This document shows positions 240 through 38,147 of a stretch of 38,147 bases of DNA, piece by piece. This DNA is from a virus: the IMG/VR virus record IMGVR_UViG_3300001749_000010, positions 1-38,147 of that record, one strand, 5' to 3'. Under the pieces are notes generated by a model, which ran no database searches, had not been told where the DNA came from, and saw only the letters and a list, made by a program, of their open reading frames with translations. The translations under genes and the position numbers were made by a program. Every line of letters starts with the position of its first letter. Position 1 is the first letter of the stretch.

Positions 240-301
240 AGCCATTTAGCCACCTTCTGACAATATGTTTAAACATTCTCTAACAAATTACGTTTACATA
301 G

Positions 302-331
302 TTGCACTATGAATACTAGTCGTACTATAAT
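302..331 (+). promoter_or_regulatory. Early sigma70-type promoter upstream of the sprT-like gene
   Basis: TTGCAC at 302-307 and a perfect TATAAT at 326-331 are separated by 18 bp. Transcription would start near 338, leaving a leader of about 44 nt with a short hairpin GCGGC-AAAC-GCCGC (346-359) and a Shine-Dalgarno-like AAGGAA before the ATG at 382. The -10 box overlaps the palindrome TAGTCGTACTA, which suggests regulation. Confidence 0.75.
317..327. promoter_or_regulatory. Operator-like palindrome TAGT-CGT-ACTA
   Basis: This 11-bp palindrome with a 3-bp centre overlaps the first two bases of the -10 box of the leftmost promoter. The same TAGT-N3-ACTA pattern recurs before other early genes and in the right-end repeats. 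I infer a binding site for one regulator. Confidence 0.6.
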
Positions 332-381
332 GACCTCAACGAGACGCGGCAAACGCCGCCCATATATAAGGAACCACCACC

Positions 382-984
382 ATGAGCAACCCAATCAACA
401 ACCTAGACCGTGAAACATGGTTAACTGAACAAGCGCAATTTATCCTAGACGATATCATAGCGCTGCACTCGCCAATCCCAACTGACCGCCCTTTCCGTAT
501 CTCTATCGGCTTTCCTTCTGGCCGTCCTTCTAAGGTACTGGCGCAATGCTGGAAAGCTAAAGCAAGCGCAGATAACACCAATGAAATTTTTGTCAGCCCA
601 ACCGTTGACGACTCAATAGAAATTCTGGCGGCGCTAGCGCATGAGCTGATTCACTACACGGATGACTGCGAATCTGGACATCAACATCACTTTGCTAAAG
701 TGGCGCGCGCTATCGGCTTAGAAGGCAAGCTAACAGCAACAGTGGCAGGTCCAACGCTGACAGAGCAACTACAGCAATACGTTGATCTGCTAGGTCCGAT
801 ACCACATGCCAAACTTGACGCGAATGAATCAGGCAAAAAGAAACAAGGTACACGCATGCTAAAGGTTGAATGTGACTGTTGCGGTTTCGCTTTCCGCGCC
901 ACTCAGAAGCATATCGACTCTATACAGTTCACTGACTGCCTAGCTTGCAACAACGGCACCCTACAACTACCAGAGGGCGCATAA
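382..984 (+). CDS. SprT-like zinc metalloprotease domain protein
   Basis: The 200-residue product carries the metalloprotease motif HELIH at residues 87-91. A histidine-rich segment follows (H100, H102, H103) that can supply the third zinc ligand, as in SprT/Spartan proteins. A C-terminal zinc ribbon is visible, with C164, C166 and C167 followed by C186 and C189. Spartan-type proteases cleave proteins crosslinked to DNA; in phages the target is not known. The ATG at 382 is preceded by AAGGAA and lies directly downstream of a strong promoter, making this the first gene of the early operon. The next gene, an AAA ATPase, starts 24 bp after its stop. The family call is firm; the role in infection is inference. 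Confidence 0.85.
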   Translation: MSNPINNLDRETWLTEQAQFILDDIIALHSPIPTDRPFRISIGFPSGRPSKVLAQCWKAKASADNTNEIFVSPTVDDSIEILAALAHELIHYTDDCESGHQHHFAKVARAIGLEGKLTATVAGPTLTEQLQQYVDLLGPIPHAKLDANESGKKKQGTRMLKVECDCCGFAFRATQKHIDSIQFTDCLACNNGTLQLPEGA

Positions 985-1008
985 GCGCCCCCACTGAGGA
1001 CACCGACA

Positions 1009-2175
1009 ATGGAACTTACAAACCAAGAACGAAGCGCAGCTAGAGCAGCACTAATAAGAGCAGGTGTAGCAACGCGCGGCATGAGAGATGCCGACCTAAT
1101 GGCAGCGGCTAAAGAACAGGAAGCCGGTACCCCAGCACCTAAACCAGAGTGGGCAGGTGGTGATTTCGATGAAACTAAAAAAATACCGCCTATTAAGTGC
1201 GAAGAAATAGAAGCCGTATTAGAAGAAAACAAAACACCTACGAAGGAAGCCGACAAGATGCCAACGCCACAAGACCAAAACGCCGCAGCTGCTCAGATAG
1301 CGCAACTTATCACTGCTATGCTACCGCAACAAGAAACATCAATTGATGAATCTCGCATTGTTGAACTTATCCAAGAACATGCAACGCAAACTATTGAGTT
1401 TAAACACCACGACAGCAAGGAAGCGATTGCAATCAAAGGCGCGCACAAGCAACTGCCTGAACTGGTTACATGGTTGAACACTGGCACTAACGTCTATCTA
1501 ACAGGTCCAGCTGGCTCAGGTAAAACTACATTAGCAGAGCAGGCCGCTAAATCACTAGACGTACCATTCTATTCAACAGGTGCGATAATGGCCTCCTATG
1601 AGCTGCTAGGCGTTCGCAACGCCCACGGCGAGTATATAGAAACACCACTGCGCAAAGCATACGAGAACGGCGGCGTATTCCTTCTGGACGAAATCGATGG
1701 TTGCAGCCCTAAAGCACTAATCTGTTTTAACCAGCTACTAGCCAACGATACCTTCTGTTTCCCTGATGGCATGGTTAACAAACACGCTGATTTCGTAGCA
1801 GTAGGTGGTGCGAACACGACAGGCCAAGGCGCTACCCGCCAATATGTCGGACGTTCACAACTTGACGCTGCTACGCTTGACCGCTTTGTGCAGATAGAGA
1901 TCGAGTATGATGAAAAACTAGAGGCGCGTTTGGCTAGGGCTGAATATGAGCGTTTTGGTGGCGATTGCCGTAACACTCTAAACGATTGGGTTACCAAGGT
2001 GTGGGATGTCCGTGAACAGCTAACCAAGGCCAAATCAACTGCACTAGTGACACCCCGCGCCACTATCCATGGTGCTAGAGGCCTAGCCAAGGGTTTAACT
2101 GTTGAGCAACTGACCGCTTCTATTCTGACTAAGCACCTATCAGATGACCAGAAAGCGCAACTTAAGGGGCTGTAA
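1009..2175 (+). CDS. MoxR/CobS-type AAA+ ATPase
   Basis: The 388-residue protein has a lysine- and glutamate-rich N-terminal region of about 140 residues without a recognised domain. An AAA+ core follows: Walker A GPAGSGKT at residues 166-173, Walker B FLLDEID at 224-230, a sensor-1 asparagine in GGANT near 269, and the arginine-finger region TLDRF near 289-293. MoxR and CobS ATPases remodel partner proteins, often metal-centre or VWA-domain proteins. The following gene, 3 bp downstream, may encode that partner, and the preceding gene is a SprT-like metalloprotease, so the three could form one module. ATPase activity is well supported; the substrate is unknown. Confidence 0.85.
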   Translation: MELTNQERSAARAALIRAGVATRGMRDADLMAAAKEQEAGTPAPKPEWAGGDFDETKKIPPIKCEEIEAVLEENKTPTKEADKMPTPQDQNAAAAQIAQLITAMLPQQETSIDESRIVELIQEHATQTIEFKHHDSKEAIAIKGAHKQLPELVTWLNTGTNVYLTGPAGSGKTTLAEQAAKSLDVPFYSTGAIMASYELLGVRNAHGEYIETPLRKAYENGGVFLLDEIDGCSPKALICFNQLLANDTFCFPDGMVNKHADFVAVGGANTTGQGATRQYVGRSQLDAATLDRFVQIEIEYDEKLEARLARAEYERFGGDCRNTLNDWVTKVWDVREQLTKAKSTALVTPRATIHGARGLAKGLTVEQLTASILTKHLSDDQKAQLKGL

Positions 2176-2178
2176 GCA

Positions 2179-2997
2179 ATGGCTACCTATATCAGAAAAT
2201 ATGACTCTATATGCCAGTTTGCGCAATACATTGATTCATTGCCTGAAGAGTCGAGAGGCAAGGACACATCAAAGCGCCGTGTTGATAAAGGCTGGGATAT
2301 GGGCGTATCGTTTAAACAAGCTCTAAATGTCGCCTTAGATGGCGGCAACTGGCAGGAAGGCGCTGAACAGCTCCAATCTGTCAGCATCGATAAAGCAGCG
2401 CATGAACTAGCTGAAGTTATCGAGCCTGCCATCATTCACGATGTGTGTGGTGGAGGTCTGGACATAGGCGAGTACCTAGCAGACAGCCCCGAGTGCTTCT
2501 TTAGGCTGGAGGATGTAGAAGTGGTGCGACCTATCGTGAAGATAGGCGTTTGTAATGTCCCTTGCGCCAACATAGAAGCACACCAAATGATGAACCACGG
2601 GCGCGCCATCATTGCACTAGTGGAAGCTTTAGAGCTTCAAGGCTATAGCGTTGAACTGTCAGCTCTGTTCATCTCCCGTGCAAGCGGTGATGTGTTCATA
2701 AGCGATACAGCTATAAAGCAGGCTGGAGAGCCTTGGAGTGCTGCCAGCGTAGCGTATGCACTAGCGCACCCTGCTTTCCCCCGCCGTCTAGGTTTCAGAG
2801 AACTAGAAGAGGACAAAGACTGCTACAAGATGACTTGGCAAGGGTATGGAGATGGGCGCATAGAGAAACCCGAAGGCTATGACTTGTACTTCAAATATCT
2901 GGACACGCCTTACAACGTAGACACCCCAGCCGATGCGCTAGAGTACGTGAAAGAGATAGCAACCAAACAACAACCGCAACTATTACAGGGCGCGTAA
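2179..2997 (+). CDS. DUF7192-like protein, probable partner of the AAA ATPase
   Basis: The 272-residue product starts 3 bp after the ATPase stop, so the two are almost certainly co-translated. The middle (residues about 90-170) has the pattern GLDIGEYLADSPECF followed by beta-rich segments and a helix NHGRAIIALVEALELQGY, which I recall as DUF7192. This is similar in outline to the VWA-like partners of MoxR/CobS ATPases. I see no complete metal-ion-dependent adhesion site and no membrane segment. The family name is from memory; the partnership with the ATPase rests on gene order. Confidence 0.55.
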   Translation: MATYIRKYDSICQFAQYIDSLPEESRGKDTSKRRVDKGWDMGVSFKQALNVALDGGNWQEGAEQLQSVSIDKAAHELAEVIEPAIIHDVCGGGLDIGEYLADSPECFFRLEDVEVVRPIVKIGVCNVPCANIEAHQMMNHGRAIIALVEALELQGYSVELSALFISRASGDVFISDTAIKQAGEPWSAASVAYALAHPAFPRRLGFRELEEDKDCYKMTWQGYGDGRIEKPEGYDLYFKYLDTPYNVDTPADALEYVKEIATKQQPQLLQGA

Positions 2998-3016
2998 AGC
3001 GCCCAAGGTGGACAGC

Positions 3017-3214
3017 ATGAGCAATACAGACAAACAAGACTATTATTTTTACTGCTTGATAGTCCAAAAGAACGGCAGGGAACAACACCAATATGGGACG
3101 GTTGGAGTAATTGAAGGTACGCACCCACAAAAAGTATACGCTGAAGTACTAAAAGACTTTAGGCAGGACCACAACACCGACAACCTAGCGTTAATTGCGT
3201 TTAACAGAATATAA
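3017..3214 (+). CDS. Small early protein of unknown function
   Basis: The product has 65 residues, starting MSNTDKQDYYF. I chose the ATG at 3017 because AAGGTGG lies just upstream; an in-frame ATG at 3008 would bury that site. The sequence is mixed alpha/beta with no cysteine pairs and no membrane segment. It sits between the DUF7192-like gene and another small gene in the same operon. I do not recognise it. Confidence 0.6.
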   Translation: MSNTDKQDYYFYCLIVQKNGREQHQYGTVGVIEGTHPQKVYAEVLKDFRQDHNTDNLALIAFNRI

Positions 3215-3227
3215 GAGGGTGGCGACA

Positions 3228-3419
3228 ATGGTTATCACGGCAGAGCACGACAACATCACAAAAACACCTTACTACCTAGCAGAGCAGCGCCATAATGGGC
3301 GTTTGATACTGGCAGAAGGGCGTACTAGGGATCAAGCCATGGACCGCTGTCTAGACACTATGCTAGACAGCGATTTAAGAGCGCTAGCGGAAGAAGTTAA
3401 CTCCCTAGATACTGTTTAA
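3228..3419 (+). CDS. Small early protein of unknown function
   Basis: The product has 63 residues. The ATG at 3228 is preceded by AGAGGGTGG, a good ribosome site, and is preferred over an in-frame ATG at 3195 inside the upstream gene. The N-terminal half resembles a small beta sheet (YYLAEQRHNGRLILAEGRT) followed by a helix, a pattern common in uncharacterised phage proteins. Its last 23 bp overlap the 3' end of the convergent helicase gene. No function can be assigned. Confidence 0.55.
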   Translation: MVITAEHDNITKTPYYLAEQRHNGRLILAEGRTRDQAMDRCLDTMLDSDLRALAEEVNSLDTV

Positions 3420-4746
3420 ACATCCTCTCATATTCTTCCTTACTTTCCACTCTATCGACCACCAATTGGTCGATAGAGTTTTCAGCCAAAATATCTACTA
3501 CCTGCACCGGCTGAGTCTGACCCCTACGCCATAATCGAGCAACTGTCTGCTCTCTCAAGTCTCTAGACCATACCGGACCAAGCCATAGCATACGCCTACC
3601 ACCAGCCGCCAAGTTTAAGCCATGGCCTGCAGATCGAGGGTGCAACAACAGAACACCCTGTTCACCAGAGTTCCACTTATCAACCGTTTCAGGTGTTACC
3701 TTGCAGTCACTGCCGAAGATTTCCTCTAGTCGTTTGAGGTCGGCACCGAACCAGTAACAGATAATGACTTGCTCCCCTTCTTTACGCCAAGAGGAAGCAA
3801 TTCCCGCGCATGCGTCTATCTTGTACCGGTCCAGCCAGTGGGTTGGTTTCACGCCATCACAATCTTCAGGACCATAGAGAAAACCGTTTGCACACTGCAA
3901 CAGCTTGTTACTCAGTACTGCAGCGGACTCAGCCTCTACCCCTTCACCTTCGAACGACACCACCATAGACCCCTTCATCTCCTCATAAGTTTTACGTAAG
4001 GCAGGCGGCATGGGGAGCACTACTTGTTCAATCTCAAGAGGAGGCAATTCATGGCGGTAGTCAGGCATAGTGTAAACAACGTCTTCAATCTTCTTACTGA
4101 TTTCAGCCGGCGCCCAATCTAGCATTTCCCAGTTGTACTCATTGTAGTCAGTAGGGTAAAAATATTTACGTTTAAATAAATCTTTACGTGTCCCCAGCCT
4201 AGCACCTGAATCAACAACCAGCATCTGACCATACAACCCCTCCCAGTCTTCAGATACGGGGGTGCCTGTCATACCGACACGCCATTTAAAATCGTTTAGA
4301 CGTGGTCTTAGTGCTTTGAAGCCGGTCCCGCCTCCTGATTTGAAGCGCGATAATTCGTCAACTATCAACCCGTCAAACTTGCCTTTAGCTTTGTACACCC
4401 TGAACAACCAAGCGATGTTTTCAAAGTTGATACATACAATAGGTGCATCACCATCTAATGCGGCGCGGCGTTTCTTTTCGTTGCTCCCTGCAGCATTGGC
4501 GACTTTGATACCAGTAAGGTGCCCCCACTTTGCACACTCTTCAGGCCATACACTGTTGCACACCTTAACCGGCGCAATAACTAGCACACGCTTAACGACA
4601 CCAGCCTCTAGCAGTTCACTAGCCGCGGTTAGCGTTACTGCAGTCTTACCAGCCCCCATATTAGCCACCAGCAACGTATTGTCATGCTCGTAAAGCCTGT
4701 CCACGGCGTTTACTTGGTCGGCGGACATATCACTAAGTTTTAACAT
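3397..4746 (-). CDS. SNF2-family (DEAD-like) helicase/ATPase
   Basis: The 449-residue protein contains the superfamily 2 ATPase motifs in order: motif I MGAGKT at 30-35, motif II DELS at 130-133, motif III GMTGTP at 158-163, and a C-terminal motif VI QTVARLWRRGQTQ near residue 405. The compact size is typical of phage SNF2-like helicases, which translocate on double-stranded DNA. The start codon lies within the end of the VRR-NUC gene (14-bp overlap) with GGAGATG upstream, so the two are translationally coupled on the minus strand. Helicase plus VRR-NUC plus DUF2800 nuclease plus family A polymerase is a recurrent phage replication cassette, so a role in replication or recombination is inferred. 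Confidence 0.85.
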   Translation of the reverse strand: MLKLSDMSADQVNAVDRLYEHDNTLLVANMGAGKTAVTLTAASELLEAGVVKRVLVIAPVKVCNSVWPEECAKWGHLTGIKVANAAGSNEKKRRAALDGDAPIVCINFENIAWLFRVYKAKGKFDGLIVDELSRFKSGGGTGFKALRPRLNDFKWRVGMTGTPVSEDWEGLYGQMLVVDSGARLGTRKDLFKRKYFYPTDYNEYNWEMLDWAPAEISKKIEDVVYTMPDYRHELPPLEIEQVVLPMPPALRKTYEEMKGSMVVSFEGEGVEAESAAVLSNKLLQCANGFLYGPEDCDGVKPTHWLDRYKIDACAGIASSWRKEGEQVIICYWFGADLKRLEEIFGSDCKVTPETVDKWNSGEQGVLLLHPRSAGHGLNLAAGGRRMLWLGPVWSRDLREQTVARLWRRGQTQPVQVVDILAENSIDQLVVDRVESKEEYERMFKQYLGS

Positions 4747-5026
4747 TTAACATCTCCGAGATGACAGAATTAGCGCGCCTAGCAGAATCGATAACTTGCA
4801 CTTCTACGCCGTGATTACGTAAATCTAGAATGCAGCGGTGCTGCAGTGGAGATACGACACCAGTACCTGAAGGCGACTTTAACTCGACTAACATCACCTT
4901 ACCTTTATAGGCTAAGAAGCAGTCAGGGAACCCCGACCGCGACCGACTCTCCACTTTATCGAAGAGAATGTTATTAGCTTTGCATTTCTTGCGCAGGTAG
5001 TCGTGCAGATTTTTCTCAGTCTTCAT
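4733..5026 (-). CDS. VRR-NUC domain nuclease
   Basis: The 97-residue product consists almost only of a VRR-NUC fold of the PD-(D/E)XK superfamily. The catalytic pattern is visible as GFPD with D35 and VELK with E48 and K50, followed by Q62. Stand-alone VRR-NUC proteins are Holliday-junction or flap-cleaving nucleases. I chose the ATG at 5026 because GAGGAGTG lies upstream; a longer form from 5050 would start within the promoter region. It is the first gene of a two-gene minus-strand operon with the helicase, driven by a promoter that overlaps the divergent promoter of the DUF2800 gene. Confidence 0.85.
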   Translation of the reverse strand: MKTEKNLHDYLRKKCKANNILFDKVESRSRSGFPDCFLAYKGKVMLVELKSPSGTGVVSPLQHRCILDLRNHGVEVQVIDSARRANSVISEMLNVKT

Positions 5027-5044
5027 TTTTATTTCACTCCTCTG

Positions 5045-5073
5045 TTGCAATAGTCGAACTATACCACTAATAT
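5045..5073 (+). promoter_or_regulatory. Rightward promoter for the DUF2800 gene
   Basis: TTGCAA at 5045-5050 and TAATAT at 5068-5073 are separated by 17 bp, a sigma70-type arrangement, about 32 bp upstream of the ATG at 5105. Operator palindromes lie in the spacer (5051-5061) and at the edge of the -10 box (5073-5083). Confidence 0.6.
5051..5061. promoter_or_regulatory. Operator-like palindrome TAGT-CGA-ACTA
   Basis: This perfect TAGT-N3-ACTA site lies in the spacer of the rightward promoter and overlaps the -10 box of the leftward promoter, so one bound protein could silence both. Confidence 0.55.
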
Positions 5074-5087
5074 AGTCGTATTACCAA
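5058..5087 (-). promoter_or_regulatory. Leftward promoter for the VRR-NUC and helicase genes
   Basis: On the minus strand TTGGTA (5087-5082) and TATAGT (5063-5058) are separated by 18 bp, upstream of the VRR-NUC start at 5026. It overlaps the rightward promoter, so the two operons share a divergent control region of about 45 bp. Confidence 0.55.
5073..5083. promoter_or_regulatory. Imperfect operator palindrome TAGT-CGT-ATTA
   Basis: This site has one mismatch to TAGT-N3-ACTA and its centre is 22 bp from that of the operator at 5051, close to two helical turns. That suggests cooperative binding on one face of the DNA. Confidence 0.4.
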
Positions 5088-5104
5088 CAAGCGAGAGAAA
5101 GAAA

Positions 5105-6295
5105 ATGCCCACTAAACATTTGAAATACGGCGGTTCAACTGCAGCGCGAACAATAGGGTGCCCAGCATGGCAGGCACTAGCCGCAAACCTCCCCGCAAAA
5201 CAACCCAAAGCATCACCCGCGGCAGAGGAAGGGACGTGTTTACACGATGCCATGGAGTATTTAATAGGTGAGGTTATATCTCCGTCACCTGAGATAATAT
5301 GCGCAAACGAAATTATAGGGGAGTGTTTCAACGGTATAGAAATAACTGAAGACATGTTGGACAGTAAACTAACCCCTGCTGCGGATACCTTAGCATACGT
5401 GTTCAACAGGTATAAAATAACGCCAGAAAACATATTTCTAGAGCCTTTTGTAGAGCTAATACCGGACAGTGCTGGCGGCTCAATTGATGTGTTAGCGTTC
5501 AGCGATGACGGTAAGACAGCCATCATTGCAGATTATAAATTTGGGTTTAATCCTGTAGAGGCGGAGAACAACGCCCAGCTACTATTCTACGCACTATGTG
5601 CCGATGTTGACCCGCAGTTTACAGATCGTATGACAGACATTGAACGTTTAGTACTGGCGATAATTCAGCCATCACATGACGGTGAAGTAGACACCACACT
5701 GAAAATCTGGGAGACAGACCCAGATACTACATTAAATACTTTTGATGCCAAGATCACTAACGCAATAGCGGTAGCTGAAGAGGGTAAAAGCGAACCTTCA
5801 GCAGGCCCACACTGTAAGTTCTGCCCAGCTGAAGCGATATGCCCTGTTAAGACAGGGCTAGCACGTCAAGCGCAGCGATTGCCAGCGATAGAAGTGCAAA
5901 ACCTAGCTGAATACATCCCCATGGCTGAAGAGCTAGAGGCGTGGATTAAAGCAGTGCGCAAGATGGCGCATGAGCAGCTAGAAATAGGCGTTAAGATCGA
6001 TGGCTATAAACTGGTAAACAAGCGCGCTAGTCGCGTCTGGACCGATGCTGAAGCTGTAGAAACTAAGATCAAAAACATGCGCGGTGTGAAAGGTCACGAC
6101 CAGTACGAAATGAAACTTAAGTCACCTGCTCAGATGGAAAAATTATTTAAGCAAAAAGGTGTTGACTTCGCCAAGATAGCCGACTATATTACTTCAGTGT
6201 CTTCTGGTACGACTATGGCGAAAGCTACAGACAAACGTCCAGAAGCACCCTCAGTAGAAGCTTACCGCGCAGCTATGGCGCAACTTCCCGAGTAA
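5105..6295 (+). CDS. DUF2800 protein, Cas4/RecB-like PD-(D/E)XK nuclease
   Basis: The 396-residue protein matches the phage DUF2800 family. Nuclease residues are visible: EEGTCLH with H47, GGSIDVL with D128, and ADYKFG with D143 and K145. Four cysteines (C19, and C237, C240 and C246 in HCKFCPAEAICP) are placed as in the iron-sulphur-clamped nucleases AddB and Cas4. Such enzymes resect DNA ends; the C-terminal 130 residues are helical and may bind partners. The ATG at 5105 follows GAGAGA. The next gene encodes the likely ssDNA-binding protein, a pairing common in phage replication cassettes. The family is firm; iron-sulphur binding is inferred from cysteine spacing. Confidence 0.85.
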   Translation: MPTKHLKYGGSTAARTIGCPAWQALAANLPAKQPKASPAAEEGTCLHDAMEYLIGEVISPSPEIICANEIIGECFNGIEITEDMLDSKLTPAADTLAYVFNRYKITPENIFLEPFVELIPDSAGGSIDVLAFSDDGKTAIIADYKFGFNPVEAENNAQLLFYALCADVDPQFTDRMTDIERLVLAIIQPSHDGEVDTTLKIWETDPDTTLNTFDAKITNAIAVAEEGKSEPSAGPHCKFCPAEAICPVKTGLARQAQRLPAIEVQNLAEYIPMAEELEAWIKAVRKMAHEQLEIGVKIDGYKLVNKRASRVWTDAEAVETKIKNMRGVKGHDQYEMKLKSPAQMEKLFKQKGVDFAKIADYITSVSSGTTMAKATDKRPEAPSVEAYRAAMAQLPE

Positions 6296-6349
6296 CTACT
6301 GAACTAACGATAGTTTAACTTTAATATTAACAATAGAAGCGAGAAAAAC

Positions 6350-7012
6350 ATGTCACAATTACCTGCAAATCCTCAAGACCTATTAGGCGGTTTCAAACGC
6401 GCACAGCAACGCCAAGAAATGGCTGGCGGTGACGGTCATTTCCTTAAGTTGGATAAGACTGGCACTTGGTTGTACGGCGCTGACGAAGTTGAAGTCGAAG
6501 AGGGTAGTCGCTGGGCTATCAACCCTGCAACGTTAGCCACTGGCTTCGCTGCTTGGGATGATAATGAAAAGGTCGGTGAAGAGATGGCGCTGCTTACCGG
6601 TGAGCCAGTTATTAAATCTTCCCTACCTGATGTCGGCGCGGCGTGGGCACCACAAACTGCAATGCAGCTGAAATGTTTAGATGGTGAAGATGCTAACGTA
6701 GAAGTTATTTACTCCACTACCAGTAAAGGCGGTCAGAAGGCGTTTAAAGTCGTTCTGGCTACTATCACTGCCCGTATTGAAGATGGCGAGACTGATATTA
6801 TCCCTATCGTTGAGATGGATGTAGACAGTTACAAACATAAGAAATACGGTAAAATTTTTACTCCTGTTCTGAAGGTCGTAGGCTGGATGGGTTTAGATGC
6901 TTTAGTTGCTCCTGAAGCTGATGAACCTGAAGTCGATGAGCCTGAAGTCGATGAAGTGGAAGAGGTGGAAGAGGAAAAACCTGCACCACGCCGTCGTCGC
7001 CAACGCGGCTAA
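6350..7012 (+). CDS. Probable phage single-stranded-DNA-binding protein
   Basis: The 220-residue product has a beta-rich core (about residues 25-185) and a low-complexity C-terminus with repeated DEPEVDE units and a glutamate run, then a basic end RRRRQRG. An acidic tail is typical of ssDNA-binding proteins that recruit partners, although it normally ends acidic rather than basic. The core resembles a phage family found beside DUF2800, where ssDNA-binding proteins usually sit. The gene lies 54 bp after the nuclease gene and ends at a strong terminator. The function is inferred from context and tail composition. Confidence 0.55.
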   Translation: MSQLPANPQDLLGGFKRAQQRQEMAGGDGHFLKLDKTGTWLYGADEVEVEEGSRWAINPATLATGFAAWDDNEKVGEEMALLTGEPVIKSSLPDVGAAWAPQTAMQLKCLDGEDANVEVIYSTTSKGGQKAFKVVLATITARIEDGETDIIPIVEMDVDSYKHKKYGKIFTPVLKVVGWMGLDALVAPEADEPEVDEPEVDEVEEVEEEKPAPRRRRQRG

Positions 7013-7022
7013 AAAGCAGACA

Positions 7023-7052
7023 CCCCTTGGTGTTAAAACCAAGGGGTTTTTT
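7023..7052 (+). terminator. Rho-independent terminator
   Basis: A 9-bp perfect stem CCCCTTGGT / ACCAAGGGG (7023-7031 and 7038-7046) with a 6-nt loop is followed directly by six Ts. It closes the DUF2800/ssDNA-binding operon, so the polymerase unit downstream needs readthrough or its own promoter. Confidence 0.9.
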
Positions 7053-7064
7053 AAACAATAATGA

Positions 7065-7075
7065 TAGTAGGACTA
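7065..7075. promoter_or_regulatory. Operator-like palindrome TAGT-AGG-ACTA
   Basis: This perfect TAGT-N3-ACTA site lies between the terminator and the ATG at 7081. I do not see a convincing -35/-10 pair with it. Because it overlaps the expected ribosome-binding region, it could also act at the RNA level. Confidence 0.4.
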
Positions 7076-7080
7076 CAACC

Positions 7081-7431
7081 ATGAGTGATATAGACGTTAG
7101 AAAATTAAAAGCAATTCGCACTAAAGTTGGTGTGTTTTTAGAAGAGACGCAGGACTTAATAGGTGCATTAAGTAACAGCAATGAGGAAGTACACGATCTA
7201 GCGCTGTTCTTTGCATACGCATTAGGCGAAGGTGCTGGCGTTGTATCTTCTGCCATTGCCTCACACCCTGAACGTGACGATGTTTCTATAGACTGCAAAA
7301 TAGAGGCTGCTATGGCTCCATGTATTGCCGGCGCAACTGAAGCAATCCAAAGAATACTAGAGGTGAACATAGAAGTATGCACATCACACCCTGTACAAAC
7401 AGACCTAAGCGATAGCGGGGTTACACACTAA
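7081..7431 (+). CDS. Small helical protein of unknown function upstream of the polymerase
   Basis: The 116-residue product is mainly helical: a basic amphipathic N-terminal helix (MSDIDVRKLKAIRTK) and an alanine-rich central helix with two cysteines further on. It has no membrane segment and no known motif. I prefer the ATG at 7081 over one at 7027, which lies inside the terminator hairpin. Its stop overlaps the polymerase start by one base (TAATG), so the two are translationally coupled. A role as a polymerase accessory factor is possible but there is no sequence evidence for it. Confidence 0.6.
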   Translation: MSDIDVRKLKAIRTKVGVFLEETQDLIGALSNSNEEVHDLALFFAYALGEGAGVVSSAIASHPERDDVSIDCKIEAAMAPCIAGATEAIQRILEVNIEVCTSHPVQTDLSDSGVTH

Positions 7432-9425
7432 TGAAATGTGTCGGTCTTGACTTTGAAACTCGGTCTAAGACCGACATCACCGCAGGCATATATAACTATG
7501 CCTCTTGCCCTACCACCGATATCCTATGCCTGTCTATTATCTGCGAGGAAACAGACGATGAATGGTTATGGTATCCGCACGATGGCCCACTACCAGCCAA
7601 TGCAGTAAAACGTTTAAACGCTGCTGACTTTGTGAAAGCTCAAAACGCCGAATTTGATAAAGCTATTTGGGAGTTCATTGCAGTACCTGACTACAACTTC
7701 CCTAAGATTGCAGAAGAAAGATGGTATTGCACCGCTGCAGAATGCCGTATCAATGCTCTGCCTAGCGCGTTGGATAAGGCAGCTAGAGCACTGAAAATAA
7801 AACGTCAAAAAGACACCCGCGGCAAACAGCTTATAAAACTACTATCTATACCTGACAAGAATACAGGTGAGTTCAATGAAGACCCTGCAGCCTTGAAAGA
7901 GATGGGTGAATACTGCCTTCAAGATTCTAGGGTAATGATGGACATCACCCGCAGCATTCGCTCAATGTCAGCGCAAGAACACGCCGATTGGCTTATCACA
8001 GTGCATTTAAACGATGCGGGAGCAAGGATAGACAGGGAGATGGCTGAACTAGCCGTTAACTACGCCGAAGATGAAAAGCAGGCCATTGCTGAAAAACTAA
8101 CTGCACTGACCGGCGGCGCAGTTACAAAACACACTCAGTCAGCACGTATAAAAGCGTGGGTGTTAGAAGAGACAAATCACGACTCTGAAATCGTAAAGCA
8201 GATGACCGTCTACAAAGAAGGCGTTACAAAGCTATCACTAGATAAGGCTATACGTGCGAACCTTATAGAGCTATCAGACACGTCTGCTCTGCATCTACCC
8301 GAACACGTATTAGAAGTTATTGAACTTACCGATCAAGGCAACAAATCCAGCGTTAGTAAGTTCCAGAAAATGCTAACCATGGCACACCCTGAAGATGACA
8401 GGGTGAGAGGTGCGTTTGTATTTGCAGGTGCTGGGCAAACTCAGCGTTTCGCCTCTAGAGGTCTGCAACTGCATAACATGAGGCGTGATTGTTGGAGCGC
8501 AACAGAGGCTTTAGGTATTAAGGCCGATATGCAGGAGGACTACGAGCTAGATAACGTTATGGATACACTGTCTAAGCTCCTGCGCCCAACAATCATGCCT
8601 GATGACGGTAAAGTATTTGTTGTAGGGGATTGGTCCGCTATCGAAGGGCGTATATTGCCATGGATAACGGGCGACCCTAGAGCTGAAGAGGTGTTAGATA
8701 TCTTCCGAAGCGATGAAGATATCTACTTGCACACCGCAGCCAGCATGCGAATTGATGACCGGCAGATAGGTAAAGTTGCAACACTGGCGCTTGGATATCA
8801 AGGTGCGGTCGGAGCCTTCCAATCGATGGCGAAAAACTACGGGCTTAAGCTGCCAGAATCGCAGGTAAAACACATCGTTAAGAAATGGCGTGAAGCTAAC
8901 CGCTGGGCGGTAGACTTCTGGGCTAACTGCGAGCGCGCCGCTATCATGGCGATGCGTAAACCTAATGAATATATTCCTATCGGGCGCTGCCACTTCGTTT
9001 ACATCGAAGGTCTGATCGATGGGACTTTATGCGGTATCCTTCCAGACGGCACAATCATTCAATACCCTAGAGCCAAACTTGAATATGTAGAGACTCAGTA
9101 CGGCGGTAAACATCAAGTATCGTACATGAAAGCCAGTCTAACACCGAAGGCAGACGCTAAAGAATGGCCTAGGCACACACTGTATGGCGGTATTATTGCG
9201 GAGAACTTCACCCAAGCAACAGCCGGTTGCATTCTGCGCGAACCGTTGCGCCGACTAGAGAACGTTGTTTTACATGTCCACGATGAAATCGTACTAGAAG
9301 TTGATACGGCTATTGCAGAAGATAGTATGACTATGCTACAGTCAGTTATGGAAGAGGTGCCGAGCTGGGCTGAAGGTCTACCGCTTAAGGCGGAGCCTGA
9401 AATAATGGACCGGTACGGCAAGTAA
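7431..9425 (+). CDS. DNA polymerase, family A (PolI-like) with 3'-5' exonuclease
   Basis: The 664-residue protein replicates the phage genome. The N-terminus holds the proofreading exonuclease motif GLDFETR (D7, E9). The polymerase domain has motif A GDWSAIEGR near residue 400, a motif B region around LGYQG, and motif C HVHDE near residue 617 with the catalytic aspartate and glutamate. There is no 5' nuclease domain, as is usual in phage family A enzymes of this type. The gene is coupled to the small gene before it and followed by a 149-bp structured gap and the primase-helicase gene. No truncation is seen. Confidence 0.95.
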   Translation: MKCVGLDFETRSKTDITAGIYNYASCPTTDILCLSIICEETDDEWLWYPHDGPLPANAVKRLNAADFVKAQNAEFDKAIWEFIAVPDYNFPKIAEERWYCTAAECRINALPSALDKAARALKIKRQKDTRGKQLIKLLSIPDKNTGEFNEDPAALKEMGEYCLQDSRVMMDITRSIRSMSAQEHADWLITVHLNDAGARIDREMAELAVNYAEDEKQAIAEKLTALTGGAVTKHTQSARIKAWVLEETNHDSEIVKQMTVYKEGVTKLSLDKAIRANLIELSDTSALHLPEHVLEVIELTDQGNKSSVSKFQKMLTMAHPEDDRVRGAFVFAGAGQTQRFASRGLQLHNMRRDCWSATEALGIKADMQEDYELDNVMDTLSKLLRPTIMPDDGKVFVVGDWSAIEGRILPWITGDPRAEEVLDIFRSDEDIYLHTAASMRIDDRQIGKVATLALGYQGAVGAFQSMAKNYGLKLPESQVKHIVKKWREANRWAVDFWANCERAAIMAMRKPNEYIPIGRCHFVYIEGLIDGTLCGILPDGTIIQYPRAKLEYVETQYGGKHQVSYMKASLTPKADAKEWPRHTLYGGIIAENFTQATAGCILREPLRRLENVVLHVHDEIVLEVDTAIAEDSMTMLQSVMEEVPSWAEGLPLKAEPEIMDRYGK

Positions 9426-9548
9426 CACAATATATTGTGGTTTGAGCGACAAACTCCCCGTATCGACAACACGATAAAAGAGGGAGTATCCTTAATAGTT
9501 CACCCCCACAAAAATAGAAAGCCCCGTTAAGGGCTTAACTTAACGGGG
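9426..9548 (+). other. Intergenic segment with four consecutive hairpins
   Basis: Between the polymerase and primase genes lie a 14-bp perfect palindrome CACAATATATTGTG (9426-9439), a stem GTTTG-AGCGA-CAAAC (9440-9454), a stem ATCG/CGAT (9462-9475) enclosed by ACTCCC/GGGAGT (9453-9458 and 9482-9487), and a 10-bp stem CCCCGTTAAG/CTTAACGGGG (9522-9531 and 9539-9548). The last has no T run on the plus strand; on the minus strand it is followed by a weak T-rich stretch. It may be a terminator, an RNA processing element or a replication element. Confidence 0.5.
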
Positions 9549-9574
9549 CCGATAAACATACCGTCGAGGGAAAT

Positions 9575-12055
9575 ATGTCTAACCAAGATTTTATACTTGC
9601 TGATGAAGTAGAGTCAACACCAGCCAAACCAGCAAGAAAGCGCGCGCCAAAACTCCCAACACCTGCGGACATGGAAACACCTTTTATAGAGGTGGCACCT
9701 AGAGAGTACAATCTAGAGACCATCCAAGAATTTCTAGACTTAGTTTTCCATGCGGGTATGACAGACCAAGGTGAAACAATGGTCTGGATGGTAGATAAAC
9801 ACCGCAAGCCGGTATACCCAATATCAGAAGATGAAATGCTGGACTACTTAGGTAAAACTAAGCAAGGCAAAGCACTTTACTACGGCACTGCCAGCGTTAG
9901 GCGTGACAACACCGGCAAACTATACAACCGCCAAGCGCTGTTCGAGCGTTTACACGTTATCGTGCTAGATGATATCGGCACTAAAGGTAAAGCATCAGAC
10001 CTGCCAGAAGGCCTTGAACCTACGTACATCATTGAATCTAGTAAGGGCAATTTCCAATACGGTTACGTACTAGAAGAACCAATCGATAACCTAGACAGTG
10101 CGAAAGCTCTAGTATCCATCATGTATGAATCAGGTATTGCCGATGCTGGCGGTAAAATGCCTAACAAACTGGTGCGATTGCCTGAAGGTATCAACGGTAA
10201 GAAAGGTAACAAAGAACGCACCTATTTCGTATCTAACCTAGTAACTATGGATGGACCATTATGGACCCCACAGAAGTTACTAGATACTTTGGACGCTGGC
10301 GTAGACTGGGCTGAAGTAGAAGAGAACGCCGAGGAAGCAACAAAGCGCCGTAACCGTATGAAAGCCGGCGCTACGCCATGGGCACCATACCGCCCACTTA
10401 TGGCAAGCATGACAGGCATCATTGACCCTGTAGCTGAGTGGTTAGTTGAGAACGATAAAGTAGTTTCTGAAAATGGTGATTGGCTGGTTATCCAATGCCC
10501 TTGGGCAAGCTCCCACACTAGCGGCGGTGATACTGCAGGGTATAAACCTATCGGTGTTGGTGAAGACCCATCAAAACGAGGTTTTCATTGCTTCCATGAC
10601 AGTTGTGAAAGCATGCACACTGAGGAATTCTTACAGTACGTGGCTGCATTAGGCGGACCGACTGCAGCGGCTAAAGATCAAGCGGCTGACATGGTATCTA
10701 GTTACGTATACGACATGGTTAACGATTGCGCTTGGAAGATAAAAGACACCCAAGACCCTCGACAGATTTCTATGTCAGGCCTTCGCAATGCACACCCACG
10801 TAAAACATTAGTAGCAACTCCAGACGGCAAGCTTAGACCTACCGCTGAATACAACATGTGGCTAACAAGTGAAAGCCGAGTGACAGTGATGGGTACAATT
10901 TTTGACCCTTCAAACCCTGCCCGATTGGTTGAACGCGATGACGACCTATTTGTTAACCAGTTCGCACCACCGTCATGGGGGCTAGGTCCGTATGAAGAGA
11001 AACACGTAGAGAAGTTTAAACAGTTTATAGACTACTTGATCCCAGCCAAGGCAGAGCGTGAATACTACTTAGATTGGTTAGCTGCCAAAGTTCAAGATAT
11101 GGGCTTCAGAGGTGCAGCAATTGTAATGGTGGCGCAGGTGCAAGGTGTAGGCCGTTCAACGCTATGCGATATGATAGCCACCATGTTAGGTTCAGTTAAT
11201 GTTCGAAACGAACCTTTTGAGAAGATTGTAGGTGAGCAACAATATAACGACTGGCTAGAAGCGCCGTTCGTAGTGACAGATGAGACATTAAACACAGGCG
11301 GTCTGAACTCATATAAGACCTATGAGAAGCTTAAAGAGCTGATAGACCCAAGACCTAGACTTATGTCCATAAACCCTAAATACGGCAAACAGCGCCGCAC
11401 AATGGTCCACTCCTCTTTCATGTTCCTGTCAAACCATAGTAACGCGTTATCGATCACTGAAGATGATCGTCGTTTCTATGTGATATCTAACCCCCACAAA
11501 CCAGCACCGGCTAAGTTCTTCACCGAGCTGAACGACTGGGTTAATGAGATGGAGGGAGGCAAACCGGCTTGGGTTACTCATGTATACCGCTGGTTGATGG
11601 AACGTAAGATAGATATGGAAATTCTACTGGCACCGCCTGAAGCTACTGCAGCTAAAAAAGCCATGATAGAGGAAAGCCGAGCAGACCTAGACTTGTTAGG
11701 CACAGAGATTTTCGCCAAGTGGCCTTGCGAGTACATTAGTTTCGGACAGTTTACACACGCTGTAGAGCACTTTGCAGATAGAGTCGGGCTGTATGACATC
11801 CAAAACTACAAAGCTCAGTTGAAACGTATCTTCGGTAGTGGCACCTATGCCCTGTCTCAGAACAGCGTTTTTAAGCTGGACGGTAAGAACACCCGCTTCA
11901 AAGTTATCATTGCTAAGGCTAACGATGACACAACACCGAAAGGTGAACTGTTAACTGCAGACGACAAAGCGCACATCAGAGCGCACTTAATCGCAGAAAA
12001 CATTAAAGAATCCATGGAAAATATAGCTGGTGCGCTTGACGTAGTAGGGCTATAG
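9575..12055 (+). CDS. Phage primase-helicase (AEP-like primase plus SF3-type helicase)
   Basis: The 826-residue protein combines priming and unwinding. The N-terminal third resembles archaeo-eukaryotic primase domains of phage and plasmid proteins, with VIVLDDIG near residue 130, ESSKGNFQYGYVL near 155 and RLPEGINGK near 205. A zinc-binding stretch follows (CPW and CFHDSCE, residues about 308-350). The C-terminal part is an SF3/DUF5906-like ATPase with a phosphate-binding loop QVQGVGRST near residue 520, where arginine replaces the usual lysine, and VTDETLN as the likely Walker B region. The arginine variant is, as far as I recall, known in this family. It lies directly downstream of the polymerase gene, completing the replisome. 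Confidence 0.85.
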   Translation: MSNQDFILADEVESTPAKPARKRAPKLPTPADMETPFIEVAPREYNLETIQEFLDLVFHAGMTDQGETMVWMVDKHRKPVYPISEDEMLDYLGKTKQGKALYYGTASVRRDNTGKLYNRQALFERLHVIVLDDIGTKGKASDLPEGLEPTYIIESSKGNFQYGYVLEEPIDNLDSAKALVSIMYESGIADAGGKMPNKLVRLPEGINGKKGNKERTYFVSNLVTMDGPLWTPQKLLDTLDAGVDWAEVEENAEEATKRRNRMKAGATPWAPYRPLMASMTGIIDPVAEWLVENDKVVSENGDWLVIQCPWASSHTSGGDTAGYKPIGVGEDPSKRGFHCFHDSCESMHTEEFLQYVAALGGPTAAAKDQAADMVSSYVYDMVNDCAWKIKDTQDPRQISMSGLRNAHPRKTLVATPDGKLRPTAEYNMWLTSESRVTVMGTIFDPSNPARLVERDDDLFVNQFAPPSWGLGPYEEKHVEKFKQFIDYLIPAKAEREYYLDWLAAKVQDMGFRGAAIVMVAQVQGVGRSTLCDMIATMLGSVNVRNEPFEKIVGEQQYNDWLEAPFVVTDETLNTGGLNSYKTYEKLKELIDPRPRLMSINPKYGKQRRTMVHSSFMFLSNHSNALSITEDDRRFYVISNPHKPAPAKFFTELNDWVNEMEGGKPAWVTHVYRWLMERKIDMEILLAPPEATAAKKAMIEESRADLDLLGTEIFAKWPCEYISFGQFTHAVEHFADRVGLYDIQNYKAQLKRIFGSGTYALSQNSVFKLDGKNTRFKVIIAKANDDTTPKGELLTADDKAHIRAHLIAENIKESMENIAGALDVVGL

Positions 12056-12095
12056 TAATAACATAAACCAACTATCAAATTAGAAGGCTTTAAGT

Positions 12096-12251
12096 ATGAC
12101 AGCACAAGCATACACGCCGCAGAAGCGATACACTGAAAAGCAGAAGGACCAAGGCCTAACAAAAGTTACGGTTTGGGTTCCTGAATATGATCGCGAAAAG
12201 ACGCTAAAATACGCGGCTAAACTGCGCAGAGAACACGAAAAGAATATTTAA
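12096..12251 (+). CDS. Small basic protein with strand-helix pattern, unknown function
   Basis: The product has 51 residues, from the ATG at 12096 with AGAAGG upstream to the TAA at 12251. The C-terminal half reads TKVTVWVPEYDREKTLKYAA and continues as a charged helix, a pattern I have seen in many small phage and prophage proteins. A beta strand followed by a helix recalls half of a ribbon-helix-helix DNA-binding fold, but the second helix is missing. It is a candidate for the regulator acting on the early operators, with weak support. A strong terminator follows. Confidence 0.65.
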   Translation: MTAQAYTPQKRYTEKQKDQGLTKVTVWVPEYDREKTLKYAAKLRREHEKNI

Positions 12252-12274
12252 ACTGCTCCACTCGTCGGTTGTTT

Positions 12275-12299
12275 GCCGAGGTAACCCCTCGGCTTTTTT
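12275..12299 (+). terminator. Rho-independent terminator
   Basis: A 7-bp stem GCCGAGG/CCTCGGC (12275-12281 and 12287-12293) with a 5-nt loop is followed by six Ts. It ends the polymerase/primase operon. Confidence 0.9.
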
Positions 12300-12325
12300 A
12301 CCGACTAGGATAGTCTTACTATAGA
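12297..12325 (+). promoter_or_regulatory. Weak promoter with operator upstream of the RMF-like gene
   Basis: TTTACC at 12297-12302 and TATAGA at 12320-12325 are 17 bp apart. The palindrome TAGT-CTT-ACTA lies at 12311-12321 and overlaps the -10 box in the same register as at the leftmost promoter (-10 starts 9 bases after the operator start). The -35 box overlaps the T tail of the terminator. Confidence 0.45.
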
Positions 12326-12334
12326 GGTGTTAAA

Positions 12335-12496
12335 ATGACTGACGATAAATATTACAGAAGAGCATACGCCCAAGGCTCTCAGGCTTACCGTGACGGATAC
12401 CCATCAGGTGCTAACCCATACGGTCGTAAAACTCGTAACTACGGTGAGTGGTTAGATGGTTGGTATGATGCGCAGGAGGTGAGTCGTGGCAGGTAG
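12335..12496 (+). CDS. RMF-like (ribosome modulation factor-like) small protein
   Basis: The 53-residue product matches the layout of ribosome modulation factor (55 residues in E. coli): an N-terminal helix with AYAQGSQAYRDGYPSG, then NPYG, then EWLDGWYDAQE, equivalent to the RMF pattern G-x2-A-x3-G, CPY and WLxGWxEA. RMF binds the 30S subunit and drives 100S dimer formation, shutting down translation. The ATG at 12335 is preceded by AGAGGTG. The gene has its own operator-bearing promoter and overlaps the next gene by 11 bp. Family resemblance is good; that it acts on host ribosomes during infection is inference. Confidence 0.65.
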   Translation: MTDDKYYRRAYAQGSQAYRDGYPSGANPYGRKTRNYGEWLDGWYDAQEVSRGR

Positions 12497-37440: not shown

Positions 37441-37471
37441 GGTTTGTAGTAGGGCTATGTACGTTAAATTG

Positions 37472-37576
37472 GTAGTCGTACTAGAAACGAAAATTGAACA
37501 TTTAGCGTAGTCATACTAGAAACGAAAATTGAACATTTTATGTAGTCGTACTAGAAACGAAAATTGAACATTTTAT
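37472..37576 (+). repeat. Three tandem 35-bp repeats carrying operators and promoter-like boxes
   Basis: Units start at 37472, 37507 and 37542; each begins GTAGTCGTACTAGAAACGA (the second has CAT in place of CGT) and ends in TTGAACATTT plus a few bases. Each contains the palindrome TAGT-N3-ACTA. Across units TTGAAC and TAGAAA are 17 bp apart in the plus direction, with the operator in the same register to the -10 box as at 317. They may be weak rightward promoters or a regulator-binding array. Confidence 0.85.
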
Positions 37577-38045
37577 GTAAATGGATCGGGGGCCGGACGA
37601 GGCCGCTGTTTTAAATTTTAGGCGGGGGTGCAAAATCTGACATAAAAGATCGATCGATCGAAGAGAACAGATTTAAACAAGGCCTGTCATTCATCACATT
37701 AACAGAGCGTTTAAACAGCGCGCTAAATTCAGCGTAAAGAACTGTTGTTTAGTTCTGTTAGTTCACGCAACAAACAACACGCACAAATAAAAGCGAGAAC
37801 ATAAGGCCGAGGGTATGGCATAGGGAGGGTGTTTAAACAGCGTGTAATAGATTGTGCGTAAATGTTTCACGGAAGACATAGGCGTACTAGTGGTATGACT
37901 ATGCGTTAACTGGAGGCGATAATAAGGACTTTTGTTAGAGATGGTGTAAACAGTCTGTAAAGTATGCAAACGAGATGCGGCGGCGATGTAGATATAAGCC
38001 GGTTTCACCCTCATATTTTGAGGCATGAAATAAGAGGTAAAAACA
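37577..38045. other. Non-coding right-end region with hairpins
   Basis: I find no convincing gene here. It contains a CGAT triplet repeat near 37650, two GTTTAAAC palindromes (37709, 37831), a perfect hairpin AGAACT-GTTGTTT-AGTTCT (37738-37756), an inverted repeat GTTGTTT/AAACAAC (37744-37750, 37772-37778), and a hairpin CCTCA-TATTT-TGAGG (38009-38023). An open frame of 87 codons on the minus strand has no ribosome site and unlikely composition. Together with 1-381 it may form an origin or control region. Confidence 0.6.
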
Positions 38046-38068
38046 AAAGGTAACTAAAGGTAACTGTA
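38046..38068 (+). repeat. Right arm of 23-bp terminal inverted repeat
   Basis: It is the perfect reverse complement of 27-49 and contains AAAGGTAACT twice in tandem. Confidence 0.85.
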
Positions 38069-38125: not shown

Positions 38126-38147
38126 TTTTTTTTTTTTTTTTTTTTTT
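38126..38147. repeat. Terminal poly-T tract, right (T22)
   Basis: Twenty-two Ts end the window on the same strand as the 20 Ts at the start. A tail added to both 3' ends would give T at one end and A at the other, so the same-strand arrangement is more consistent with a circular or terminally redundant molecule opened inside a T tract, or with an assembly effect. Confidence 0.9.

Follow-up and report, generated by a model that had tools for sequence, protein, structure and literature searches.

The 11-bp palindrome TAGT-N3-ACTA (TAGTNNNACTA), which recurs in an IMG/VR virus record of 38147 bases (the whole of which was analysed and is here called the window), is probably the operator of a phage-encoded repressor, most likely a 51-aa protein of ribbon-helix-helix (RHH)-like type. 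As it occupies matching control points in related phages, beside a small DNA-binding-like protein, it looks like a self-limiting early-gene switch – 'early' being a label suggested by gene content and synteny.

Perfect copies number ten, against 0.95 expected from dinucleotide shuffles of the whole window (in line with the earlier estimate of about one chance copy), and none of 100 such shuffles gets to ten; among window palindromes whose arms span four or five bases and whose gaps run from 0 to 8, TAGTNNNACTA is in the top three for over-representation. The copies start at 299, 317, 5051, 7065, 9323, 12311, 18907, 37473, 37508 and 37543. The original prediction had located all of these correctly, except those at 299, 9323 and 18907, and it had also correctly given the one-mismatch copy at 5073 while missing the degenerate ones at 12042, 37447, 37879 and 37891. 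Its statement that every copy found was non-coding holds for eight of the ten (9323 and 18907 are coding), and the bias is still far from chance: non-coding DNA makes up 2026 of 38147 bases (5.3%), which gives a binomial p = 2.6e-9, and the comparison of coding with non-coding density, set beforehand, thus came out unequal and in favour of non-coding DNA. The two coding copies are probably due to chance and match the one chance copy expected. One-mismatch copies, counted over the whole window, show no excess (25 vs 20 expected), so that the signal comes from the perfect copies, joined by some degenerate ones at key places, with five in informative positions (5073, 12042, 37447, 37879 and 37891; Table 1).

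Table 1. Copies of the palindrome and associated features in the window, with counterparts in related contigs (L numbers)
Feature	Position	Strand	Remarks
Putative operator TAGTTGCACTA, perfect	299..309		Overlaps -35-like TTGCAC (302-307) of SprT/MoxR promoter
Putative operator TAGTCGTACTA, perfect	317..327		Overlaps -10 TATAAT (326-331)
Putative operator, perfect	5051..5061		In spacer of rightward TTGCAA-17-TAATAT (5045-5073)
Putative operator TAGTCGTATTA, one mismatch	5073..5083		Downstream edge of rightward -10
Perfect copy	7065..7075		Between terminator 7022-7047 and ATG 7081
Coding copy, perfect	9323		Inside polA
Promoter TTGACG-17-TAACAT of candidate regulator gene	12036..12064	+	Overlaps VapE stop codon
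Putative operator TAGTAGGGCTA, one mismatch	12042-12052		In spacer of TTGACG-17-TAACAT
Candidate regulator gene, 51 aa	12096-12251	+	Resembles ribbon-helix-helix / MazE-like proteins (phrog_11804)
Perfect copy TAGTCTTACTA	12311..12321		Between terminator 12275-12293 and RMF-like gene 12335-12496
Coding copy, perfect	18907		Inside tail-protein gene
One-mismatch copy TAGTAGGGCTA	37447..37457		Same letters as copy in candidate regulator leader (12042)
Array, three 35-bp repeats, one putative operator each	37472..37579		Copies at 37473, 37508, 37543
Two adjacent one-mismatch copies, TAGGCGTACTA and TGGTATGACTA	37879..37901		Starts 37879, 37891
Leader motif TAGTCGTACTATAA	L091
Leader motif TAGGTGTACTATTT	L179, L180, L181, L207
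Leader motif TATGCGTACTATTA	L176
Leader motif TAAGCGTACTATAT	L177
Counterpart of 5051	L180:856		Promoter-like TTGCAT-17-TATCAT
Counterpart of 5051	L181:4965		Promoter-like TTGACT-18-TATGAT
Counterpart of 5051	L207:3218		Promoter-like TTGCAT-17-TATTAT

The copies at 299 and 317 are paired, 18 bp apart, on the promoter-like TTGCAC-18-TATAAT upstream of the SprT-like gene (382-984). The 5051 copy, which like the one at 12042 lies within a promoter spacer, also overlaps the leftward -10 of TTGGTA-18-TATAGT; together with 5073 it falls in the 75 bp that separate the divergent genes VRR-NUC (leftward) and DUF2800 (rightward), and the pair overlaps promoter hexamers for leftward as well as rightward transcription. 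Reversed, the 5073 site (TAATACGACTA) resembles a T7 promoter, but the motif is a palindrome; the large early-region ORFs encode a helicase, an AAA ATPase, a nuclease, PolA and a VapE-like protein, none of which looks like an RNA polymerase, and the T7-type reading was therefore dropped.

With shuffled flanks for comparison, promoter resemblance exceeds chance at 317, 5051 and 12042 and is no better than the shuffles at 7065, 12311, 37473-37543 and 37879; as the coding copy at 9323 also scores p = 0.035, this comparison is weak taken alone. A -10 box nine bases after the operator start, claimed originally for 317, 12311 and the array, is genuine at 317 (TATAAT), with plausible instances at 12311 (TATAGA) and at array copies 2 and 3 (TTGAAC-17-TAGAAA, where the shuffled flanks do as well), the spacing being partly built in because the motif's own terminal TA begins the hexamer. 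The weakest sites are 7065 and 12311, each of which sits between a terminator and a start codon. No convincing promoter was seen at 7065, where an AGGA may serve as ribosome site; at 12311, a TTTACC-17-TATAGA promoter is possible. The product of 12335-12496 resembles ribosome modulation factor, with a Pfam RMF match (E 3.9e-5) that falls short of the family's cut-off, and this gene, right after the putative operator, is possibly one for translation control.

Most sites overlap a -10-like hexamer (TATAAT, TACTAT, TATGAT), and the motif might accordingly be read as a promoter element – a -10 with upstream bases – for host RNA polymerase or a variant sigma factor, with no operator involved. We consider this quite improbable: the position of the -10 relative to the motif varies (+6, +9, +17 or overlap with the -35 over all sites; +6 or +9 in the relatives), which speaks for an operator, the GYG bases outside any hexamer stay conserved, and the sites are paired and arrayed, those of the window including perfect palindromes.

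The original prediction of one DNA-binding regulator, not obvious among the encoded proteins, is to be amended in its second part, as a candidate is present at 12096-12251 with a degenerate copy of the motif in its leader. Its gene lies just downstream of the VapE-like helicase gene, at the end of a rightward replication operon (DUF2800, gene 6350, polA, VapE-like helicase), and at sequence level a putative operator does sit in its own promoter, at 12042 as in the leaders of seven relatives. The seven aligned proteins of the family share QKRYT-like, G and RV(N/T)xWVPE stretches, and all seven match phrog_11804, whose annotated function is unknown. Weaker matches are to MazE-like, RHH_5, KorA and UrfF families: MazE-like PF11455 is matched by two of seven members (best E 0.0013, below its cut-off; 19.1 bits for the window protein and 21 for the distant homologue in L211, against a gathering cut-off of 22), RHH_5 weakly by two of seven (best E 0.0014), and NCBIfam UrfF NF041430, for the member shown, reaches 16 bits against a cut-off of 100. 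A literature search on UrfF gave irrelevant matches only, and the BacA paper describes no RHH protein. The AlphaFold2 monomer (pLDDT 76.5, pTM 0.40) has a helix at 3-18, an extended stretch at 19-29 and a helix at 30-50, a helix-strand-helix arrangement unlike the textbook strand-helix-helix and without a second C-terminal helix; fold searches, PDB included, gave no match. The gene's neighbours encode the VapE-like helicase and the RMF-like protein, and no toxin-family match appeared among the flanking early genes scanned.

Relatives were found by a VapE-like helicase profile and have the same early gene order as the window; a VapE search of the genome collection gave eight weak loci, none useful, and polA, small terminase and the 51-aa protein, each taken as a single-sequence query, brought up no viral contigs. 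Seven independent relatives carry a close 51-aa homologue (L091, L176, L177, L179, L180, L181 and L207; the near-copies L197 of L177, and L182 and L185 of L181, were not counted as independent). In these, the homologue's gene comes directly after VapE, and in all seven its leader contains a version of the motif, TANGYGTACTAT or, in one, TAGTCGTACTAT. In six of the seven, the leader has TTGACG-17-TACTAT, the motif being placed as in the window; the relatives' motif shows incomplete symmetry in its left half, which in L177, L179 and L181 runs over the stop codon of VapE. Three relatives (L180, L181 and L207) had a readable divergent region, with the nuclease side leading leftward and the operon rightward, and all three have the motif there as TATGCGTACTAT. 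L207, fetched once the motif was already defined, has exactly two copies, both at the predicted places, and the near-complete G044 has exact TANGYGTACTAT only twice, at the 51-aa-type leader and the divergent region. A matrix built from the relatives alone, applied to the window, places non-coding window copies at eight of its ten top matches (with about one match at the tenth score in simulated genomes); the copy at 37879 (TAGGCGTACTA), which has the relatives' form of the motif, ranks second. Conservation at matching places in relatives is thus found, as the original prediction implied it should be, in the leader, the divergent region and – in L023, a capsid relative (78%) – an array of three tandem copies (14-bp spacing, 414-452) upstream of a small-terminase-like gene, the counterpart of the window's right-end array.

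In the 3.18 Mb of fetched DNA, exact TANGYGTACTAT occurs only in records with the 51-aa gene, and there at the leader or in the divergent region, plus L184, L215 and L023. The single copy in L184 follows its gene-6350 homologue, L184:1709 being placed like window 7065. There, TAGGTGTACTATAATG (L184:1709-1723) lies over a TTTACC-17-TATAAT promoter and also over the start codon (ATG) of a PAPS-reductase-like ORF, whose full message could therefore not be made from a promoter there. Among major-capsid relatives (up to 88% identity), the motif is not enriched; as most of these contigs are fragmentary and lack the early region, and L015, which is near-complete, has a single copy, capsid kinship is the wrong yardstick.

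Linkage to the gene is what bears on another possibility, namely that the palindrome is the operator of a different regulator – a host factor, or the small terminase, which has a weak helix-turn-helix match and borders the array – with the 51-aa protein merely linked. Phage terminases can bind repeats, and distant homologues of the 51-aa protein occur without the motif: it is absent with those of L211 and L217 and not obvious upstream of that of a filamentous Vibrio phage (close homologues of the L181 protein were not found in plasmid and phage records). We nonetheless think this unlikely, for in each of seven independent relatives the 51-aa gene has the motif in its leader, and L172, L173/L174 and L175, where the sequence after VapE is readable and the gene absent, have no TANGYGTACTAT copy. 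In relatives of the L172/L174 type, which lack the VapE-linked regulator, a different small ORF (L172:1944, L174:4987), Arc-like by eye (e.g. RFTLGNIPQSLHGDVKNLAE) and with no Pfam match, precedes DUF2800.

A host factor or terminase would also leave unexplained that, over the window and the seven relatives, strand residue 25 of the 51-aa protein covaries with motif position 4: a T accompanies the TAGT sites of the window and L091, an N the TANG sites of the other six. By VapE identity to L181, L091 (50%) is nearer than the window (39%), so that the shared T25 and TAGT do not simply reflect closeness, although a single ancestral change would also account for the covariation. A bolder idea, which we hold to be rather doubtful, is that a 51-aa helix-strand-helix protein without the second RHH helix represents a new minimal class of DNA-binding regulator, coordinating early transcription and replication from one palindrome, its specificity switchable at one strand residue (T25 for TAGT, N25 for TANG).

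The right-end array is non-coding and lies upstream of the small terminase gene, in a terminase/SprT non-coding region of roughly 1.1 kb that holds about eight copies, with 35-bp direct and inverted GTTACCTTT repeats; with its inverted repeats, it may be a replication or packaging region. This density, and the L023 array in the same region, would suit a palindrome that is mainly a replication-origin or partition-like repeat, its promoter copies being secondary. We find this reading highly improbable in view of G044, both of whose TANGYGTACTAT copies are at promoters and none in a terminase/SprT-type region. The window has T runs at both ends (1-20, 38126-38147) and, near them, AGTTACCTTT repeats in inverted orientation (30-50, 38042-38065); the G044 counterpart of the window-end region has a poly-A run and GTTACCTTT repeats. 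Possibly a circular genome was opened within a homopolymer, or the region serves as an origin or in packaging.

A further palindrome, GTTTAAAC, has 13 copies in the window, where 1.05 would be expected, spread over coding and non-coding DNA alike (267, 1398, 2310, 3414, 7612, 11014, 22107, 22755, 29206, 32998, 35333, 37709 and 37831). Many related contigs have it in great excess (L211 17, L016 16, L181 15, L019 12, L217 11), and 171 of the 228 loci examined lack it; perhaps it is a highly iterated palindrome associated with a host group.

The early regulon under one regulator that was first proposed appears largely borne out by enrichment, placement, conservation and linkage. What was directly computed is the enrichment, the non-coding bias, the promoter-like overlap at the main sites, the conserved places and the co-occurrence with the gene; from these we infer the protein's binding, repression by that binding and its timing, while the overlap of sites with promoter hexamers suggests that it is early transcription that would be repressed. 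As the 51-aa protein accumulated, a dimer would bind the palindrome, occluding RNA polymerase at the SprT/MoxR promoter (299/317), blocking the divergent helicase-nuclease/DUF2800 promoters (5051/5073) and blocking its own promoter (12042), which would give negative feedback and early shut-off; the terminase-side arrays (37447-37901) may regulate transcription or replication there. The proposal offers a testable regulon – operator, target promoters and candidate repressor – for uncultured phages with a VapE/PolA-type early region, a role for the phage family phrog_11804 and a simple candidate protein-DNA pair for work on specificity.

By sequence, the nearest matches of the 51-aa family are UrfF (plasmid repression protein F) and MazE-like PF11455 – both below curated cut-offs, where shown – and phrog_11804. 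Members of the RHH superfamily have a strand-helix-helix fold, dimerise through the strand and insert it into the DNA major groove. Among them, P22 Arc and related repressors are small, basic and dimer-type, with an alternating-pattern strand and short palindromic operators over early promoters, and serve in early shut-off and autoregulation. The 51-aa protein is likewise small and basic, with an alternating strand (KVTVWVP) and palindromes over early promoters as its proposed targets, but its model lacks helix B and has an N-terminal helix, its putative operator differs in sequence, and it has no detectable sequence link to Arc or related repressors. RelB of E. coli relBE is an RHH autorepressor with operators in its own promoter (PMC2812701), a likeness to the RHH-type autorepression proposed here through the operator in the 51-aa gene's own promoter; unlike RelB, the 51-aa protein has no toxin partner found beside its gene, and its sites are spread over several phage promoters. 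Anti-CRISPR-associated (Aca) repressors are small phage regulators whose genes come last in an early unit; they are proposed to act as repressors of early transcription and are described as helix-turn-helix families (PMC9410906). The 51-aa protein is not helix-turn-helix and has more putative target sites, yet, as with Aca, its gene ends an early unit and it is a candidate early repressor.
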